Notes under the pieces: generated by a model
What the model was told of the DNA's origin: nothing
Database searches by the model: none
The model's input: only the letters and a program-made list of their open reading frames with translations
Position numbers and translations under genes: made by a program
Shown here: in pieces, positions 27,664-36,860 of the stretch
Layout of the letters: each line of letters begins with the position of its first letter
How positions within the stretch are numbered: the stretch's first letter is position 1
NCBI RefSeq assembly: GCF_900230225.1
Contig: NZ_OCNH01000004.1
Location: forward strand, 124,001-188,000
DNA from: Spirosoma fluviale
GTDB lineage: Bacteria; Bacteroidota; Bacteroidia; Cytophagales; Spirosomataceae
Direction of reading: 5' to 3'
DNA length: 64,000 nucleotides

Positions 27664-29343
27664 TTACTCCACGGCAAACTTCACCAGCCACTGGGTTACG
27701 GTAGCATTTGTCAGGTTGAAGACCAGATTAGGAAATAGACCCAATACAAGCGCCATAGCTCCCAGCGGAATCAACATTAACTTTTCCCGAAGGGTCAGAT
27801 CGGCGATAACAGGCTCGATACCGGATTTCGTTTCGAAAGGCCCAAGCCAGGGTGCGCCAAAAAACATTCGCTGAAACGTCCAGAGGAAGTAAGCCGCAGC
27901 CAGCAGAATACCCAGCGTAGCCACCGCCGTGAACCAGCCGGGCAGCCACTCCGACTGAAAGCTGCCCATCAGGGTGAACAACTCGCCCACAAAGCCCGAA
28001 AAACCGGGTAATCCCAGCGAACCAAAGAACGCGATTGCCGTGAGGGTAGCATACTGCGGCATCAATTGCAGCAGGCCCCGGTACGACTCGATCCGGCGGT
28101 CATGGGTACGGTCATATACTACGCCCACAATCAGGAAGAGCATGGCCGACAGAATGCCGTGGCTTACCATCTGATAAATTGCCCCGTTGATACCCTCGGC
28201 CGTTAACGAGGCCACGCCTAAGAGTACAAAACCCATGTGCGACACCGATGAATAGGCGATCATCTTCTTGAGATCAGCCTGGGCCAGCGCGCTCAGGCCG
28301 CCGTACACGATCGACAACACTCCAAGCCCGGCCAGTACCTGTGCGTACTGAGCGGCTCCATCGGGAAAGAAATCCCAGGCAATCCGGATAAACCCGTAAC
28401 CACCGATTTTGAGAAGTACCCCGGCCAGAATGACCGATACGGGCGTGGGCGCTTCTACGTGGGCATCGGGAAGCCAGGTGTGCAGCGGGACGATGGGTAA
28501 TTTAATTGCAAAGCCAATAAAGATGGCCCAAAAGGCCAGCATTCGCGCCGGAAGGCCCAGAACAATTGGCTCGGTAGCGGGATTCAGGAACGTATTGGGC
28601 AGGTAATTACGACCATCAGCCAGATACCGCATATCGAACGTATGCACCACCTGCGACGTATTTAACTGACCGTTCTGAAGAAACGACTGGATACTGCGGA
28701 TCACGTCATCCGTTACGGCCGATGAATCCGAAACGAGTCCGGCAACGACCGCTGTGCTCACCGGGTCCATAACGGACAGATACAGCGCAATCATGACCAG
28801 CAAGATCAGTAGCGAGCCTAGCAGCGTATAAAGAAAGAACTTGATGGACGCGTACTCCCGCCGTGGCCCGCCCCACAAGCCGATCAGGAAGTACATTGGC
28901 AGAAGCATGAACTCAAAAAACAGGAAGAACAGAAAGAAATCGAGCGCCACGAAGCAGCCCATAATAGTGCCCGTGAGTAGCAGATAAAGCGAATAATACG
29001 CTTTCTGCCGGTGCGTCATGGGCCAGGAAGATACTACGCCGATGAGCATCACCACCGCCGACAAGACGACCAGCGGCAGGCTGATCCCGTCTACCCCAAC
29101 CAGGTAATCAATGGACACGACGCCCAGATTCCCCAACGGCAGTGTAATCCAATCGACCTGTTGGAGGAATTGATACCCGGCTTCGGCTTTGTCGAACCCT
29201 GCCCAGGCCATGCCCGCCAGCACTACTTCGACCAGCGTTACGGCCAGTGCAATCCATCGAAACAGACCGGTCTGACGTTCGGGCAGCAGCGCCACCACAA
29301 GCGAGCCGATTAAGGGAATAAAAATGAGTAACGAAAGAATCAT
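27664..29343 (-). CDS. nuoM: NADH-quinone oxidoreductase subunit M
   Basis: 559 residues, about 14 membrane helices. It has the antiporter-like subunit pattern: PLHTWLPDAHVEAPTPVSVI, then KKMIAYSSVSHMGFVLLG and the SLGLPGFSGFVGE segment near the C-terminal third. It is one of three proton-pumping antiporter-like chains of complex I in the inner membrane. It is the last gene of the cluster here. The gene after it on the same strand is not nuoN. Confidence 0.96.
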   Translation of the reverse strand: MILSLLIFIPLIGSLVVALLPERQTGLFRWIALAVTLVEVVLAGMAWAGFDKAEAGYQFLQQVDWITLPLGNLGVVSIDYLVGVDGISLPLVVLSAVVMLIGVVSSWPMTHRQKAYYSLYLLLTGTIMGCFVALDFFLFFLFFEFMLLPMYFLIGLWGGPRREYASIKFFLYTLLGSLLILLVMIALYLSVMDPVSTAVVAGLVSDSSAVTDDVIRSIQSFLQNGQLNTSQVVHTFDMRYLADGRNYLPNTFLNPATEPIVLGLPARMLAFWAIFIGFAIKLPIVPLHTWLPDAHVEAPTPVSVILAGVLLKIGGYGFIRIAWDFFPDGAAQYAQVLAGLGVLSIVYGGLSALAQADLKKMIAYSSVSHMGFVLLGVASLTAEGINGAIYQMVSHGILSAMLFLIVGVVYDRTHDRRIESYRGLLQLMPQYATLTAIAFFGSLGLPGFSGFVGELFTLMGSFQSEWLPGWFTAVATLGILLAAAYFLWTFQRMFFGAPWLGPFETKSGIEPVIADLTLREKLMLIPLGAMALVLGLFPNLVFNLTNATVTQWLVKFAVE

Positions 29344-29414: not shown

Positions 29415-31322
29415 TTAAAGCAACCACCAAAGTATTACCAGCAATCCCATTACAGCCGCCGTAATGTACGACTGCACCCTACCATTCTGCACCGACCGGG
29501 TCAACTGCCCCAACCGGCCAGCCAGCCAGGCGGCACCATTCACCAGGCCATCCACGCCCACCCGGTCCAGCAAACTGGTCAGATGCGCTAGCACAACGGT
29601 AGCAACACCAGCTCCGTTGACAACCCCGTCGATCGCACGCTGGTCGGTACGGTTAAGGAATGTTGCCAGCCGAACCGTTGGCCGGATAGCGAGTCGGTCG
29701 TAAAAGAGATCCAGAAAACCGTAATTAACCGAAAGCTGTACGTAAGAGCGATCTGCATTGGGTTCCTGTAATCGAAAGCCAGCCCATCCACCCAGTAAAA
29801 CGAGGGCAATAGAGACGGGAGCCAGCCACCAAAAATGAGGTTCATCGGCCAGGGGTAGTAGCCGGAAAAACCAGCCACCTGAGCCGGATAATGGATTTAT
29901 GGAGAACCAGACCCATAATGACAAAACCGCCAGGATCACCACTGGACCACGCATCAGCCAGCCGGGTTCATGGGCTGCTGACAAGAGCGTTGTTTCGCTT
30001 CGGTACGTGCCAAAGAATACCAGCCGCCATTGCCGGGCCATATAAAAAGCCGTCAGACCCGAGGAGAGCAGTACCAGTACGGGTATACTCAGGGCCAAAC
30101 CGGAACCCTGCGCTTCGGCCCAGCCAAACGCTCCGCCCAAAATGGCTTCTTTCGAAAGAAAGCCGGATAAAAATGGTAAACCGGATAAGGCTGCGGCACA
30201 AATTGTATAGGCAATAAATGTTGTTGGCAATACCTTACGCAAGCCGCCCATTTGCCGCATATCCTGGCTGTGAACGGCATGAATGATAGCCCCCGCACTA
30301 AGGAACAAACCTGCTTTGAAAAAGGCGTGGGTCAGCAAATGGAACATGGCCCCGGTAACATTCCCCGTTCCCATCCCCACCACCATAAGCCCCAATTGTG
30401 ATACCGTTGAAAAGGCAAGTACTTTCTTGATGTCGGTTTGAAAAACAGCCGAATACCCTCCCCAGAGTGTGGTTATGGTACCAACAACGGTAATAACAAC
30501 CAGCGCATCGGGCGACAGCAGCGGGTGAACACGCGCCAGCAGGAAGATACCCGCAGCGACCATCGTGGCCGCATGAAGCAAGGCCGATACCGGTGTGGGG
30601 CCTTCCATGGCATCGGGAAGCCAGGTCAGCAGCGGAAACTGCGCTGATTTACCGACGCAGCCCATAAATAAGCAAAGACCAAGGATGGTGGGCGTAATAC
30701 TATCTGCCCCTTTGTCGGCCAGAATCGTAAAATCAAGCGTGTCGAAGTAATAATAGGTCAGGAAAATACCAATCAGGAAACCAATATCCCCCACGCGGTT
30801 CATCAGAAACGCCTTCTTGGCAGCCTGAGACGCGGCAGGGCGTTCGGCGTAAAACCCGATGAGCAAGTAAGAGGCCAGACCTACCAGTTCCCAGAAGCCA
30901 TACATGACCAGCAAATTTCCGGCGAGGATGATTCCCAGCATAGCGCCTACAAACACCTGTAAGTACGAGAAATAACGACGCAGCTTCGGTTCATCGTGCA
31001 GGTAAGAAATGGAGTAAACTTGTACCAGCAACGCGACGAAGTGCACCAGCAGAAGCATCAACACCGCCAGCGCATCAGCCCGAAACGTAACCGGGAAGGA
31101 AACACCGGACAGAACGGCCCAATCACTTTGGAGCACAACCGCCTGTTCGGGCAGGTTCAGGGCTAGTAAAACAGACAGCATCAGGCCCGTCCCCGTCAGT
31201 AAAACCGCGATGAGCTGCGCCACCCGGCGACTAGCCATTGTCAACACCAGAAACCCGGCAAAGGGTAACAGAAGTATAATAGCCGTTAAGAGGTGAGGCA
31301 GTTGGAAGGGGTTGGCGGGCAT
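29415..31322 (-). CDS. nuoL: NADH-quinone oxidoreductase subunit L
   Basis: 635 residues, roughly 16 membrane helices. Signatures are LLTWLPDAMEGPTPVSALLH (the conserved proton-channel loop), 'KKVLAFSTVSQLGLMVVG', and FLSGFLSKEAILGGAF. The C-terminal part fits the long lateral helix region. It is the distal proton pump of complex I. There are 71 bases to nuoM. The start ATG at 31322 gives the normal N-terminus. Confidence 0.96.
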   Translation of the reverse strand: MPANPFQLPHLLTAIILLLPFAGFLVLTMASRRVAQLIAVLLTGTGLMLSVLLALNLPEQAVVLQSDWAVLSGVSFPVTFRADALAVLMLLLVHFVALLVQVYSISYLHDEPKLRRYFSYLQVFVGAMLGIILAGNLLVMYGFWELVGLASYLLIGFYAERPAASQAAKKAFLMNRVGDIGFLIGIFLTYYYFDTLDFTILADKGADSITPTILGLCLFMGCVGKSAQFPLLTWLPDAMEGPTPVSALLHAATMVAAGIFLLARVHPLLSPDALVVITVVGTITTLWGGYSAVFQTDIKKVLAFSTVSQLGLMVVGMGTGNVTGAMFHLLTHAFFKAGLFLSAGAIIHAVHSQDMRQMGGLRKVLPTTFIAYTICAAALSGLPFLSGFLSKEAILGGAFGWAEAQGSGLALSIPVLVLLSSGLTAFYMARQWRLVFFGTYRSETTLLSAAHEPGWLMRGPVVILAVLSLWVWFSINPLSGSGGWFFRLLPLADEPHFWWLAPVSIALVLLGGWAGFRLQEPNADRSYVQLSVNYGFLDLFYDRLAIRPTVRLATFLNRTDQRAIDGVVNGAGVATVVLAHLTSLLDRVGVDGLVNGAAWLAGRLGQLTRSVQNGRVQSYITAAVMGLLVILWWLL

Positions 31323-31383: not shown

Positions 31384-31992
31384 CTAATTCGTTTTTAACC
31401 AGCCCGTCACGCTCAGGCGTTCGCGGATGGCGGGCAGTACCTCGTGTTCAAGCCGGGCGCTCTCGAAACACACCAGCCGCCCCCCAATCGGTGCGACTGT
31501 AACCTGACGCTCGGCGTTGTTTTCTGCGTCGGGCAGATAAAGCGCCAGTTGCCCGCCATCGGTCTCCTGCCAGTCGGTATTGAGGTAGCAGATGACGGAT
31601 AGCTTCCGGCGGGAATCGCTGCGAAACTGGTCCAGATGGCGTTTGTAGAACGTGCCGGGCGGATAGAGCGCATAGTGAAATTCGTAATCCCGCAGGCCGA
31701 GGTAACATGTTTGATTAACATAATCCACAAATGAGCCAATCCGTTGCAGGAAAACGGCTTCATCGGCGGTAGCGCTGGCCTCATCCAGCCACAGTATTTC
31801 GTCACCCCGAATGGTCTGTTCAATAGTTACCTGCTGATTGCCGATACCAGCCACTTTAAATTGCCCCGCTTCGCGCCGTTGACGGAGTCGGGAAGCCAGG
31901 GCGGCTACTTCGTCGGTCGTCAGAAAGTTGTCGATCAGGCCGTAGCCTTCGTTGAGAATACCGTCGATAATCGGCTCAAATAAATCGTTCAC
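31384..31992 (-). CDS. 2-oxoglutarate/Fe(II)-dependent oxygenase (prolyl-4-hydroxylase-like)
   Basis: 202 residues from a GTG start. The facial-triad ligands are H119 and D121 (YKRHLDQFR) and H183 (ARLEHEVLP), with R192 two residues before a serine (ERLSVTGW) as the likely 2-oxoglutarate anchor. The body fits the prolyl-4-hydroxylase/PKHD fold (ICYLNTDWQETDGGQLALYL). It overlaps the nuoK stop by 4 bases (GTGA) and lies 61 bases before nuoL, so it is inside the complex I operon. The target could be a protein residue, but this is unknown. Confidence 0.85.
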   Translation of the reverse strand: MNDLFEPIIDGILNEGYGLIDNFLTTDEVAALASRLRQRREAGQFKVAGIGNQQVTIEQTIRGDEILWLDEASATADEAVFLQRIGSFVDYVNQTCYLGLRDYEFHYALYPPGTFYKRHLDQFRSDSRRKLSVICYLNTDWQETDGGQLALYLPDAENNAERQVTVAPIGGRLVCFESARLEHEVLPAIRERLSVTGWLKTN

Positions 31993-32300
31993 TGCTTCAG
32001 TTCGTTCAATTCATCCAACTGCGCCGTGCGGAAATGGCGATAAACCTGCATCACAATGGCCAGCGCAACGGCCGACTCAGCAGCGGCCACGACCATGACG
32101 AATAAGCTCAACATCTGCCCCTGCAAGCGGTTAGGGTCGTATTGACTGAACGCAACGAGGTTGATATTAACGGCATTGAGCATCAGTTCGATACCCATCA
32201 GCACCACGATAGCATGGCGTTTAAGCAGCACCACGGCCAGCCCAATGCTGAAAAGACCAGCCCCGACCAGTAAAAACAGATGGCTGTTAACGGGTTGCAT
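31989..32300 (-). CDS. nuoK: NADH-quinone oxidoreductase subunit K
   Basis: 103 residues from the ATG at 32300, the normal length; an open extension to 32375 would run into nuoJ. Three membrane helices carry the conserved glutamate in VLMGIELMLNAVNI and the second in 'AAAESAVALAIV'. The subunit forms part of the proton path of complex I. Its start overlaps the nuoJ end by 14 bases, and its stop overlaps the 2OG-oxygenase start. Confidence 0.95.
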   Translation of the reverse strand: MQPVNSHLFLLVGAGLFSIGLAVVLLKRHAIVVLMGIELMLNAVNINLVAFSQYDPNRLQGQMLSLFVMVVAAAESAVALAIVMQVYRHFRTAQLDELNELKQ

Positions 32301-32844
32301 GTCGGGAGGGTTTAGTGTGAGAAGCAGCCAGGTATGTAGCGCCAACGAGAGACGCCAGCAGTAAAATTCCGGCAATCTCGAAGGGAACGACGTACTCTGT
32401 CATGAGCTGTTTACCAATAACGGGTGTCGTATTCTGCCAGCCAGCCGGTTGATCGAGCAGGCTGAAGTTCGCCCGGGCCAGCAACGTTTGTAACGCAACA
32501 AACAAAGCCCCCACAACCAGAACGGGAATAATCCACCCGGCTCCCTTCGCAAATCGGCTCGCCGATATGATGCGGTTAGGCTGCTGGCTGTTCGTATCCG
32601 CCGGACGTTCCGGTTTGTGCGTAAGCATGACGCCAAAAATTACCAGCACCAATACGCCCCCAACATAAATCATGATCTGCGCGATGGCCAGAAAATCGGC
32701 ACTGGCCAAAACGAACAACCCGGCCACACCAAAGAGCGTGAGCAATAGAAAAAAAGCCGCGTAAAGCACATTTCGCGTCAGCAAAACAGCCAACGCACCG
32801 CCTAATGTCAACGCAGCAAAAAAATAAAAGGCAAGTTGAACCAC
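32287..32844 (-). CDS. nuoJ: NADH-quinone oxidoreductase subunit J
   Basis: 185 residues, GTG start, about five membrane helices. The N-terminal helix pair with NVLYAAFFLLLTLFGVAGLF and the 'AIAQIMIYVGGVLVLVIFG' segment is typical of NuoJ. A short polar insertion (residues about 78-88) and a periplasmic loop precede the last helix. It lies 5 bases after nuoI and overlaps nuoK. Confidence 0.94.
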   Translation of the reverse strand: MVQLAFYFFAALTLGGALAVLLTRNVLYAAFFLLLTLFGVAGLFVLASADFLAIAQIMIYVGGVLVLVIFGVMLTHKPERPADTNSQQPNRIISASRFAKGAGWIIPVLVVGALFVALQTLLARANFSLLDQPAGWQNTTPVIGKQLMTEYVVPFEIAGILLLASLVGATYLAASHTKPSRHATR

Positions 32845-32849
32845 TGGTT

Positions 32850-34361
32850 TTATTGGTCTGATTGAGAAGGAGTATCCGATGCGTCGTCGGCTTTGGGCCG
32901 GGGCTTCATCGTTGGTCGAAAGGCGGCTGGCTTCGGCTTGACTGGTTCGCTATCCGGTATCGTCGGCTCCTCCGCCTTTAGTTCAGGTGCTGGTAACGGG
33001 GCCGGACTTTCCTCCACGGGGGGCTGCGGAACAACCGCAGGTTTCATCGTTGGTCGAAAGGCCGGTTTCGGTTTCGGTGTTTCTGCCGGTGACGATGATT
33101 CCGGTTCGGCGGGTTTAGGCGGCTTCATCGTTGGTTTGAAAGCCGGTTTCGCCTTCGGGACTTCGGGCTCGGGCGAAGGAGCCTGTGGCGCATCCGGCTC
33201 CGTTTTAGCAACCGTAGGCGGTTTCATTGTCGGCCGGAAAGCTGGCTTTTTCGGCGCTTCGACCGCTGGTGCAGCAGCCTCCGGCTGAACGTCTTCTTGC
33301 GGCTCGGCAGCTTTCGCAACCGGTGGTTTCATCGTTGGCCGGAAAGCCGGTTTGGGTTTGGGCGCTTCGGCCGGTGCAGGAGCTTCTGGCTGAAGCTCCG
33401 CTAGTGGCTCGGCCGGTTTGGTAACGGGCGGCTTCATCGTTGGCCGGAAACCGGGCGGCTTGGCAGCGGGCTTCGGCGTTTCCGGCACATCGGCAAGTGT
33501 GGGCTGCGATGCGGGCAGGTCGTTGGCAGGCACGTCAGTTACGCTTACCTCAGGCTTTTTGGTAGGCCGGAACACAGGGCGTTTCGCAGCTTCAAGTCCA
33601 CCCTGGGCAATTTGCTGCATTTCATCCGGCGTAGCATCGGTGAGCGGATGTTCAATGGATGACCCTTCGGAATTAGCCGGTTCATGCGGTTCGGCTGGCG
33701 GAGCAGCGGGTTTAGCCGTTGGCTTGAATACCGGCCGTTTGGGTGCCGGAGCACTCGCGCCCGCTTCCGGAGTGGCTGCGGCTTTGGCGGCTACCTGAGC
33801 GGCCCTGGCCTCGTCTTTCTCCCGAAGAAACTGCTCGTACAAGGTCCGTTTTTCATCTGCCTGCTCGGGGGTTAGGTTCGAGAAATTATAGGTCAGCTTA
33901 CCGAGTTCGAATTCACTGTAATCGAATTTCTTGTCCATTGTCAGGCACTCGGTGGGGCATACCACCGTACACAGGCCGCAATAGCAGCACTTGGCCATAT
34001 CAATGTCAAATTTTGCCGCATACAGGCGTATCGGCGATCCATCGGAAGCCCGACCAACCTCTTCCGTAGCTTTTATGGCATCAATGGTAATGCAGTCAAC
34101 GGGGCAGACTTTGGCGCATTTATCGCAGACGATGCAATCCTCAATTTCATTCCGAAGCCGGTAGCGACCGTTGTCGGGAATAGGCAATTGTTCGTACGGA
34201 TACTGAAGCGTAACTAGGCCATTCTGCAAATCGAAGTACGAATCGCTGGCTATTCCTTCGGCCGTTCGTCGTTTCGTGGCGTTCCGAAGGTGCCTCAACG
34301 TCAGGCTCAGCCCCTTCAGCGTTGTCCGGATACCCGACTGTATGTCCTTGAAGTATGACAT
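32850..34361 (-). CDS. nuoI: NADH-quinone oxidoreductase subunit I with long repetitive Pro/Lys tail
   Basis: 503 residues; the usual subunit is only about 150-200. Residues 1-190 are a normal NuoI with two 4Fe-4S clusters: C76-C79-C82-C86 and C125-C128-C131-C135 (both CxxCxxCxxxCP). From about residue 205 to the end the chain is low-complexity, Pro/Ala/Glu/Lys-rich, and contains eight copies of an F-[RK]-P-T-x-K-P motif (Phe at 212, 264, 305, 340, 375, 408, 434 and 481). The reading frame is continuous and codon bias is the same as in the head, so it is probably made. The tail's role is unknown. Confidence 0.92.
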   Translation of the reverse strand: MSYFKDIQSGIRTTLKGLSLTLRHLRNATKRRTAEGIASDSYFDLQNGLVTLQYPYEQLPIPDNGRYRLRNEIEDCIVCDKCAKVCPVDCITIDAIKATEEVGRASDGSPIRLYAAKFDIDMAKCCYCGLCTVVCPTECLTMDKKFDYSEFELGKLTYNFSNLTPEQADEKRTLYEQFLREKDEARAAQVAAKAAATPEAGASAPAPKRPVFKPTAKPAAPPAEPHEPANSEGSSIEHPLTDATPDEMQQIAQGGLEAAKRPVFRPTKKPEVSVTDVPANDLPASQPTLADVPETPKPAAKPPGFRPTMKPPVTKPAEPLAELQPEAPAPAEAPKPKPAFRPTMKPPVAKAAEPQEDVQPEAAAPAVEAPKKPAFRPTMKPPTVAKTEPDAPQAPSPEPEVPKAKPAFKPTMKPPKPAEPESSSPAETPKPKPAFRPTMKPAVVPQPPVEESPAPLPAPELKAEEPTIPDSEPVKPKPAAFRPTMKPRPKADDASDTPSQSDQ

Positions 34362-34454: not shown

Positions 34455-36860
34455 TTAAATGGTTGGAAACCGCTCTGGCTCGGCTTCGCTCATGATGGCG
34501 TAAACGGTTTCGATTACATCATCAACGTTTGGCTTAGAGAAATAATCTCCATCGGAGCCATAAGGAGGCCGGTGGGCTTTGGCCGATAAGGTCATCGGAG
34601 CCGAATCCAGGTAGCGGTAAGCATTCTGGCTTTCGATCACCTGCTGCATCATGTAGGCCGATGCGCCACCGGGCACGTCTTCATCGGCGAACAAAACCCG
34701 GTTTGTTTTCTTAATTGACTTGACAATCTGGTGATTCACGTCGAATGGCAACAAGGTTTGCACGTCGATCACCTCCACGCTGATACCTAAAGCGGCCAGT
34801 TGTCCGGCGGCTTCCAGCACAATCCGGCACATGGAGCCATAGGTAACCACCGTCACGTCGGAACCAGACTGTAATACCTCCGGTACGCCCAGCGGCACAC
34901 AGAACTCATCCAGATTCGTGGGTAATTGCTCTTTCAGGCGGTATCCGTTCAGAGACTCGATCAGCAGGGCGGGGTCATCGCCTTTCATGAGGGTGTTGTA
35001 AAAGCCAACGGCCTGCGTCATGTTGCGGGGTACCAGCACATGAAGGCCGCGCAAACTACTCAGCATCGTGCCCATAGGCGAGCCCGAATGCCAGATGCCT
35101 TCCAGCCGGTGGCCGCGCGTCCGAACAATAAGGGGTGCTTTCTGCCCGCCTTTGGTCCGGTATTGCAGCGTAGCCAGATCGTCCGTCAGGGTAGCCAGCG
35201 TATAATAAACGTAGTCGAAATACTGAATTTCAACAATGGGCCGAAGTCCGCGCATAGCCATGCCGATTCCCTGCCCGATAATGGTAGTCTCGCGAATGCC
35301 CGTATCGGTAATGCGTATCTCGCCGAACTTTTCCTGCAAGCCCGCAAAACCCTGATTCACATCGCCAATGTGGCCAACATCTTCACCCAGCGCCACAACG
35401 CGCGGGTCGCGGCTGAACAAGCCGTCGAAATAATGCTGAAGCAACTGATACCCGTCGAGTACGGTACCTTCCTCGTCATACTGCGCAGGGACGGCCTGTA
35501 CCAGCATTGGCGAATCGGGCGACTGGCTGTAAAGGTGAGAGCTAAACCGATCGGCGTTTTCGGTATTTGTCCGGTCGAGCCAGGCTTTCAGGCGTTGCCG
35601 CCCAGCACCGGTATCGGCCCGTAACAGGCGAAGTGCTTTTCGAATGGCCGACACCGCATCCCGACGTACGGGCGAGAAGGTTTTCCGAAGTTCTTCCCGA
35701 ATCGCCATTAATTCGGCCGCTTTCGGGTGGTGGCGGGCCGTTAGCTGAAGCAGATCGAGGGCTTCCGTAAAGTCCCCTTTCATAGATGCCTGATACGCAT
35801 CCCAGGCATCAATCCGTGCTTTTTTGGCGGTTTGTTTGGCTTCCGCTTCAATGGCTTCGAGTTCTTCGCTGGTAGCATACCCATTTTCCAGAATCCACCG
35901 CCGGAACAGTACGTTGCAGTCATGTTCTGCTTCCCAGGCAAGGCGCTGCTTCGATTTATACCGTTCATGCGAGCCCGAGGTCGAGTGGCCCTGTGGCTGG
36001 GTAAGTTCCTGTACATGAACCAGTACGGGAACATGCTCTGTCCGGCAAATATGAGCGGCCTGCTGGTAGGTTTCCAGCAATGCCGGATAATCCCACCCTT
36101 TTACGGTGAATATCTCCATGCCTTTATCATCGCTGTCGCGCTGAAAACCAGCCAGAGCTTTTGAAATACTCCCCTTAATTGTCTGGTATTCAACCGGTAC
36201 AGATATACCGTAACCATCGTCCCATACAGACATCAGGAGCGGCACCTGCAACACACCAGCGGCATTCATGGCTTCCCAGAACATTCCCTGGGAGGTAGAT
36301 GCATCGCCAATGGTCGAGAAAACGATTTCGTTACCATTGTGCGAAAAAGTAGTCAGGTCGCCTAGTTCAGGATTATTACGAAAAAGTTTGGAGGCATAGG
36401 CCAGCCCAAGCGAGCGGGGCACCTGCCCGGCTGTTGGTGCAATATCACAGACAGAATTATAGAGTTCGGTTTGGTTCCGCCACAACCCCTGTTCATCGAG
36501 CCAGCGGGTAGCGAAGTGTCCATTCATTGACCGGCCTGCGGTATTGGGCTCGGCCTCCAGATCGGTGTGGGCATAGAGTTGCGCAAAAAACTCCGTCCAG
36601 CGTAGCTCTCCCAAAGCGGCCACGAACGTTTGGTCCCGGTAATAGCCGGAACGAAAATCGCCCCGATTAAAAGCACTAGCCACTGCCAATTGTGCCAGCT
36701 CTTTCCCATCGCCAAATATGCCGAATTTAGCCCTTCCTCCCATCACATCACGCCGACCCAACAAGCTCACCTGTCGGCTTTCGCAAGCCAATAGGTAATC
36801 TGACAGGATTTTTTCGCGACTTATAATATCAGTCGAGCGGAGTTGTTCGTTTGCTATCAC
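34455..36860 (-). CDS. 2-oxoacid dehydrogenase E1, fused alpha and beta subunits
   Basis: 801 residues from a GTG start. Residues about 1-380 are the alpha half with the thiamine-diphosphate site (GDASTSQGMFWEAMNAAGVL at 185-204, then VWDDGYGIS). Residues about 460-800 are the beta half (VALGEDVGHIGDV, later GSPMGTMLSSLRGLHVLVPR, 'DVQTLLPFD'). Such single-chain E1 proteins act on branched-chain 2-oxoacids or pyruvate, decarboxylating them and passing the acyl group to E2. E2 and E3 are not nearby. The usual Asn-Asn of the thiamine site reads Asp-Asp-Gly here, perhaps a lineage trait. Confidence 0.88.
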   Translation of the reverse strand: MIANEQLRSTDIISREKILSDYLLACESRQVSLLGRRDVMGGRAKFGIFGDGKELAQLAVASAFNRGDFRSGYYRDQTFVAALGELRWTEFFAQLYAHTDLEAEPNTAGRSMNGHFATRWLDEQGLWRNQTELYNSVCDIAPTAGQVPRSLGLAYASKLFRNNPELGDLTTFSHNGNEIVFSTIGDASTSQGMFWEAMNAAGVLQVPLLMSVWDDGYGISVPVEYQTIKGSISKALAGFQRDSDDKGMEIFTVKGWDYPALLETYQQAAHICRTEHVPVLVHVQELTQPQGHSTSGSHERYKSKQRLAWEAEHDCNVLFRRWILENGYATSEELEAIEAEAKQTAKKARIDAWDAYQASMKGDFTEALDLLQLTARHHPKAAELMAIREELRKTFSPVRRDAVSAIRKALRLLRADTGAGRQRLKAWLDRTNTENADRFSSHLYSQSPDSPMLVQAVPAQYDEEGTVLDGYQLLQHYFDGLFSRDPRVVALGEDVGHIGDVNQGFAGLQEKFGEIRITDTGIRETTIIGQGIGMAMRGLRPIVEIQYFDYVYYTLATLTDDLATLQYRTKGGQKAPLIVRTRGHRLEGIWHSGSPMGTMLSSLRGLHVLVPRNMTQAVGFYNTLMKGDDPALLIESLNGYRLKEQLPTNLDEFCVPLGVPEVLQSGSDVTVVTYGSMCRIVLEAAGQLAALGISVEVIDVQTLLPFDVNHQIVKSIKKTNRVLFADEDVPGGASAYMMQQVIESQNAYRYLDSAPMTLSAKAHRPPYGSDGDYFSKPNVDDVIETVYAIMSEAEPERFPTI

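Follow-up and report, generated by a model that had tools for sequence, protein, structure and literature searches.

A repeated-motif tail on the NuoI subunit of an apparent 11-subunit complex I in Spirosoma fluviale and its relatives

Complex I of 11 subunits, without NuoE, NuoF and NuoG, occurs for example in Desulfitobacterium hafniense and Bacteroides fragilis, according to the available portions of two papers (PMC11238625, PMC7002350). In the text available from the first, the donor of this complex is an open question and no common donating protein was found (PMC11238625); the portion available from the second speaks of an 'unknown electron donor' (PMC7002350). Cyanobacterial NDH-1, which is without the NADH module, is described in the available part of another paper as binding ferredoxin in a basic pocket to which NdhI, the homologue of NuoI, contributes (PMC7021789). 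The flexible, Lys-bearing C-terminus of NdhS has been proposed to fly-cast ferredoxin in NDH-1 (PMC13249358, available portion).

We analyzed a 64,000-nucleotide stretch of the Spirosoma fluviale genome (the window) that encodes a NuoI protein with a long C-terminal tail. The gene belongs to one of two sets of complex I genes in this genome, which we call set A and set B. The features of the locus are as follows.

27664-29343, minus strand: nuoM of set B, 559 aa; TIGR01972, above cut-off
29415-31322, minus strand: nuoL of set B; TIGR01974, above cut-off
31384-31992, minus strand: 2OG-Fe(II) oxygenase gene (Pfam PF13640), between set B nuoK and nuoL
31989-32375, minus strand: nuoK of set B; Pfam PF00420; given from the first possible start, the true start being probably further in
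32287-32844, minus strand: nuoJ of set B; Pfam PF00499; first possible start 5 nt past the nuoI stop
32850-34361, minus strand: nuoI of set B, head and tail, 503 aa; single uninterrupted open reading frame
32850-33791, minus strand: Pro/Ala/Lys/Glu-rich tail, residues 191-503, stop codon included; defined by composition, kept in relatives
33591-33653, minus strand: second conserved tail element EHPLTDATPDEMQQIAQGGLE (EHPLTDATPxEMQQIAQGGLE), residues 237-257; shared by most rows of the genus and also by rows of Larkinella
33792-34361, minus strand: NuoI head, residues 1-190, with two [4Fe-4S] motifs; Pfam Fer4_7, conserved over 49 rows
34455-36860, minus strand: fused E1 alpha-beta 2-oxoacid dehydrogenase gene, directly upstream of nuoI

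The preliminary description of this DNA had read the gene as a two-cluster NuoI head continued in the same frame by a long tail. The single frame of 503 residues bears this out, with Fer4_7 at residues 76-139 of the head (Pfam) and the two [4Fe-4S] motifs of a NuoI. Against TIGR01971 the protein scores 82 bits, below the curated cut-off of 113.05, while the NuoI of set A reaches 132.9; its top NCBIfam matches are NuoI models, all under cut-off. The gene order that follows is that of a nuoI context, with nuoJ, K, L and M and the oxygenase gene between K and L. We call the protein a divergent NuoI homologue, a name taken from context and not from model score. The oxygenase gene sits between nuoK and nuoL in at least 13 of 80 named loci, as counted with a narrow motif probe on cut loci that missed the relative L054. 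In the NuoM of set B, the match to the NuoM model is split in two, suggestive of an insertion before residue 264.

The genome contains two copies each of NuoI, NuoC, NuoD and NuoH, and one NuoF, which adjoins the tail-less NuoI. Set A lies on contig C8, where A, B, C, D, E, F, a short G, H, I and J are found together and K, L, M and N are located about 60 kb off the A end of the cluster (A, B, J and K were named by eye). Its NuoI has 188 aa and no tail. In set A, NuoG has just 363 aa (L113:14838-15929, minus strand), and its match to the NuoG model, which has 606 positions, covers only positions 1-263; a gene for a 507-aa membrane protein lies between set A nuoF and nuoG. Set B is scattered. 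The tailed NuoI, J, K, L and M are in the window, C is at 390.6 kb of contig C13, D on C7, H on C4 and N at 941.7 kb of C8. A second NuoF was not found in the genome, and set B possibly shares the sole NuoF, that of set A. The preliminary description had assumed an ordinary complex I; the tailed NuoI belongs instead to a second set without a NuoF of its own.

Set B thus resembles the 11-subunit complex I, no NuoF having been found for it and C, D and H to N having been located. It differs by its long motif-bearing NuoI arm, which is not mentioned in the available portions of the two descriptions (PMC11238625, PMC7002350). The likeness to cyanobacterial and plastid NDH-1 consists in a core without NADH module, and in NDH-1 the homologue of NuoI is the point of electron entry (PMC7021789, available portion). 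In the available account of NDH-1 the flexible tail is on NdhS and has five Lys, whereas here it is on NuoI, is about 300 aa long and carries a repeated motif. The 14-subunit, NADH-dependent complex I of the E. coli type, here represented by set A, has homologous core subunits, but combines E, F and G with a tail-less NuoI. Among solved structures, the head matches chloroplast NdhI first (67 bits), followed by mitochondrial NuoI (59) and cyanobacterial NdhI (57). As a sign of ferredoxin use this likeness is weak, since cyanobacterial NdhI scores no better than mitochondrial NuoI.

The combination of a tailed NuoI with the absence of NuoF recurs in relatives. NuoF is absent at E<=1e-20 in 11 of 46 hand-picked relatives, each of which has exactly one NuoD; ten of these genomes are at least 96% complete and one, G230, is 84% complete. 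Tails of at least 92 aa are present in eight of the 11, while G203 and G251 have about 40 aa and G336 has none; NuoF-less complexes can therefore do without a long arm. In G310, the genes for A, B, C, D, H, tailed I, J, K, L, M and N occupy one 20-kb stretch without E, F and G (read by eye, with A, B and I identified by Pfam). The remaining 35 relatives have NuoF, and tails occur in NuoF-bearing genomes too. An exception to a clean rule is G365: its single NuoD falls in the score class of set B, yet it also has a NuoF-like gene (one), so that an NADH module might serve its tailed complex. Taken together, the NuoF-less set and the NuoF-less relatives with tails point to an apparent complex I of 11 subunits, devoid of an NADH module, in which the arm is on the subunit where electrons enter.

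The tail comprises 313 aa (Pro 25%, Ala 18%, Lys 10%, Glu 9%) and is net neutral as a whole. It contains eight copies of the motif F[RK]PTxKP.

33708-33728, minus strand: motif 1, FKPTAKP, residue 212
33552-33572, minus strand: motif 2, FRPTKKP, residue 264
33429-33449, minus strand: motif 3, FRPTMKP, residue 305
33324-33344, minus strand: motif 4, FRPTMKP, residue 340
33219-33239, minus strand: motif 5, FRPTMKP, residue 375
33120-33140, minus strand: motif 6, FKPTMKP, residue 408
33039-33059, minus strand: motif 7, FRPTMKP, residue 435
32901-32921, minus strand: motif 8, FRPTMKP, residue 481

The count of eight and seven of the positions agree with the preliminary description, which had placed motif 7 at residue 434; the separation it gave as 26-52 residues is 27-52 when measured from start to start. 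Shuffling the tail 20,000 times gives a mean of 0.0004 motifs and a maximum of 1, against the 8 observed. All eight Phe residues of the tail are within motifs. The FxPTMKP coding pattern has 6 sites in the 7.8-Mb genome, all inside nuoI, and the reversed-pattern control has 0, which rules out the motif as a general genome signal. In this gene, the net charge is +3 to +5 in each 14-residue block around a motif and -3 to -8 in the intervening stretches. A short helix is predicted at residues 245-252 within the EHPLTDATPDEMQQIAQGGLE element by a low-confidence model; this element may be a second binding site. Two AlphaFold models of the whole chain have mean pLDDT values of 47 and 54 with large parts of the head also below 50, and are unusable as evidence for disorder of the tail because the head itself is poorly modelled.

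A search with the head matches 191 of 200 family genomes at E<=1e-20 and none of the other 9. All 34 sampled members of the genus match, S. fluviale included, with open frames of 310-609 aa. A search for long NuoI proteins (over 300 aa) with the motif had been proposed, and long frames are common: 143 among the best 150 of the 191 family matches have at least 300 aa. The proposed grounds for refutation were absence of the tail in close relatives together with a frameshift or assembly error; the relatives have the tail and the frame is uninterrupted. Because the tail is kept in relatives, a frameshift or assembly error in one record is ruled out as its source. Proximity of nuoJ is weak as proof that the tail is translated: a nuoJ-like frame is at most 120 nt away in 120 of 159 rows, the gap having a median of 18 nt and measuring at most 15 nt in 51 (nuoJ recognised by a crude pattern).

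In 101 unique closed family rows (loci L003-L112 and L137-L152), the median tail length is 280 aa (87-499). At least one strict motif is present in 87 of them, at least three copies of the looser pattern F-x-P-x(x)-[KR] in 97 and at least one in all 101. The looser-pattern count started from 185 proteins, of which 159 were left after removal of duplicates and of rows with unread residues; rows open at the locus end were excluded. Unread bases inside the tail are found at L160 and L193 (genomes G212 and G052), and both rows are excluded from the tail counts. Copy number, which the preliminary description had suggested comparing between strains, varies from 0 to 13 strict motifs per relative in a first count with a narrow pattern that missed 22 of 112 loci, one of these being the tail-less set A locus.

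Across the order, this NuoI is present in 154 of 241 genomes, with open frames of 180-832 aa among the matches listed. At E<=1e-15, a match is present in 179 of the 395 genomes sampled from the phylum. Seven of the 18 phylum rows fetched have tails of at most 27 aa, and some carry another repeat, such as KKLPPMMAAKLAAKK. Outside Cytophagales, at L242-L245 and L248-L250, NuoI has a tail with a quite different repeated unit of this kind, as if such arms arose or were rewritten more than once. Within the order, no tail is present in the fetched rows of families f12 (2) and f21 (1), and the two rows of family f5 have a tail of about 40 aa with a single repeat cluster.

Within the genus, motifs and spacers evolve at very different rates. 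In 30 genus rows (L003-L032), amino acid identity is 0.917 in the motifs, 0.895 in the head and 0.401 in the spacers; the corresponding pN/pS values are 0.075, 0.084 and 0.551. The motif pN is biased low, the columns being defined by the motif pattern itself, and F-x-P columns and residue-matched identity serve as controls. In the same 30 rows, 215 of 219 tail Phe residues are in F-x-P, and R/K, T, K/R and P dominate those columns. Residue-matched identity in motif versus spacer is 0.99 versus 0.59 for Pro, 0.94 versus 0.25 for Thr and 0.88 versus 0.52 for Lys. This substitution pattern indicates that the motifs of the genus are under strong purifying selection, while the spacers drift. The motif copies inside one gene are old, with a pS of 0.726 and a pN of 0.084 between them; windows 9-15 residues downstream of motif starts have a pN of 0.620 between copies. 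Recent tandem duplication of DNA is therefore ruled out as the whole cause in the genus. The longest remaining DNA array in nuoI consists of 2.3 copies of 105 nt with a 78% match.

Pro/Ala/Lys tails are prone to expansion, and the tail could be a low-complexity repeat expansion of little or no function. The range of tail lengths in the family and the drift of the spacers fit such an origin, as does the tree of 70 heads, on which the label 'tail >=60 aa' needs seven changes (12.2 on average with shuffled labels). We regard this explanation as highly improbable, given that the pN/pS of the motifs equals that of the enzyme head at high synonymous divergence and that long frames are kept in all 34 sampled genus members.

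The letters of the motif change between lineages. Spirosoma has FRPTMKPP, Larkinella FRPTLKPK and Dyadobacter FRPTMKPK; the repeat is KPVFVPKKP in Runella and KPVFKPTFKP in Emticicia, and Siphonobacter has RPAFKPGFKK and KSFKPVFKK. Many further Cytophagales families have kept a tail whose motif is spelled differently; their rows contain repeats such as KPVMKPVMKP, KPVIKKP, KPFKPIIKRK, KPIKIKLP and AKPWLKSST. Among rows with a tail of at least 60 aa, the neighbourhood of bulky hydrophobic residues is basic (p<=0.01) in 72 of 104 family, 28 of 30 other-Cytophagales and 9 of 11 other-phylum rows. A basic context shared despite changed letters would suit a loosely specific target such as lipid. 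The tail might then be a membrane-surface tether, with basic, hydrophobic stickers that would hold the peripheral arm or neighbouring complexes on anionic lipids at the inner face, and the KKLPPMMAAKLAAKK-type repeats of distant relatives look amphipathic by eye. We consider a tether unlikely, however: the T, M and P of the genus motif are kept at 94-99%, which is stricter than lipid binding should need, and the stickers are rich in proline.

The alternation of positive and negative blocks in this gene, together with the variable copy number, would also be compatible with a sticker-and-spacer chain that links complexes to each other, by homotypic clustering or in a supercomplex. Charge blockiness is not general, being significant in 30 of 104 family, 4 of 30 other-Cytophagales and 0 of 11 other-phylum rows, and the genome has no further FxPTMKP coding site outside nuoI. 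Such a linkage of complexes is distinctly unlikely in our view.

The reading that we prefer, tentatively but as quite a possible one, takes the tail for a flexible arm that offers multivalent docking to a putative soluble electron donor of the NADH-module-less complex I. Each motif would be a short basic sticker, flanked by proline and bearing a bulky hydrophobic residue, and the acidic, drifting spacers would keep the stickers apart. The presumably disordered arm would most likely catch a soluble, probably acidic donor (ferredoxin, flavodoxin or a donor enzyme), and its capture would raise the local concentration of the donor by the iron-sulfur clusters of the NuoI head. In favour of this reading are the conservation of the motifs, the tie of the tail to a set without NuoF, the basic setting of bulky hydrophobic residues in other families and the precedent of the fly-casting proposed for NdhS. 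Against it stand the net neutrality of the tail, the restricted occurrence of charge blockiness, the NuoF-less relatives with a short tail or none, the tails in NuoF-bearing genomes, the case of G365 and the weak likeness of the head to NdhI. A multivalent binding arm had been suggested in the preliminary description, and motif selection, varying copy number and spacer drift support it indirectly.

The suggested purpose of that arm, to gather other enzymes, found no direct support. Since the set of the tailed NuoI has no NuoF of its own, capture of an electron donor is the likelier use. A candidate partner for enzyme gathering is the neighbouring fused 2-oxoacid dehydrogenase E1. Its gene precedes nuoI in 30 of the 78 named loci that extend far enough upstream, and inspection by eye places it there in the distant genome G127 (L238) as well. 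The other 48 named loci gave no E1 at this place; it was not found in the Dyadobacter and Runella loci. E1 complexes usually yield NADH, which should not be readable by a set without NuoF. Recruitment of metabolic enzymes by the tail is therefore improbable.

The 11-subunit complex I is already known. A narrow search of titles and abstract starts among open papers found no paper on a NuoI tail or arm. We know of no other bacterial respiratory complex with a multivalent arm of short motifs; the docking arm, if confirmed, would provide one.

The preferred docking reading can be extended beyond the genus. Across much of Cytophagales and in some deeper relatives, an evolvable motif array on NuoI may have replaced the missing input module and may select the donor, its letters co-evolving with the donor of each lineage. 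We hold this extension to be doubtful, though conceivable. A conserved arm on the electron-entry subunit offers a concrete bait for the donor of the 11-subunit complex I, and if the letters of each lineage do co-evolve with its donor, the tail would be a ready bait with which to identify it.
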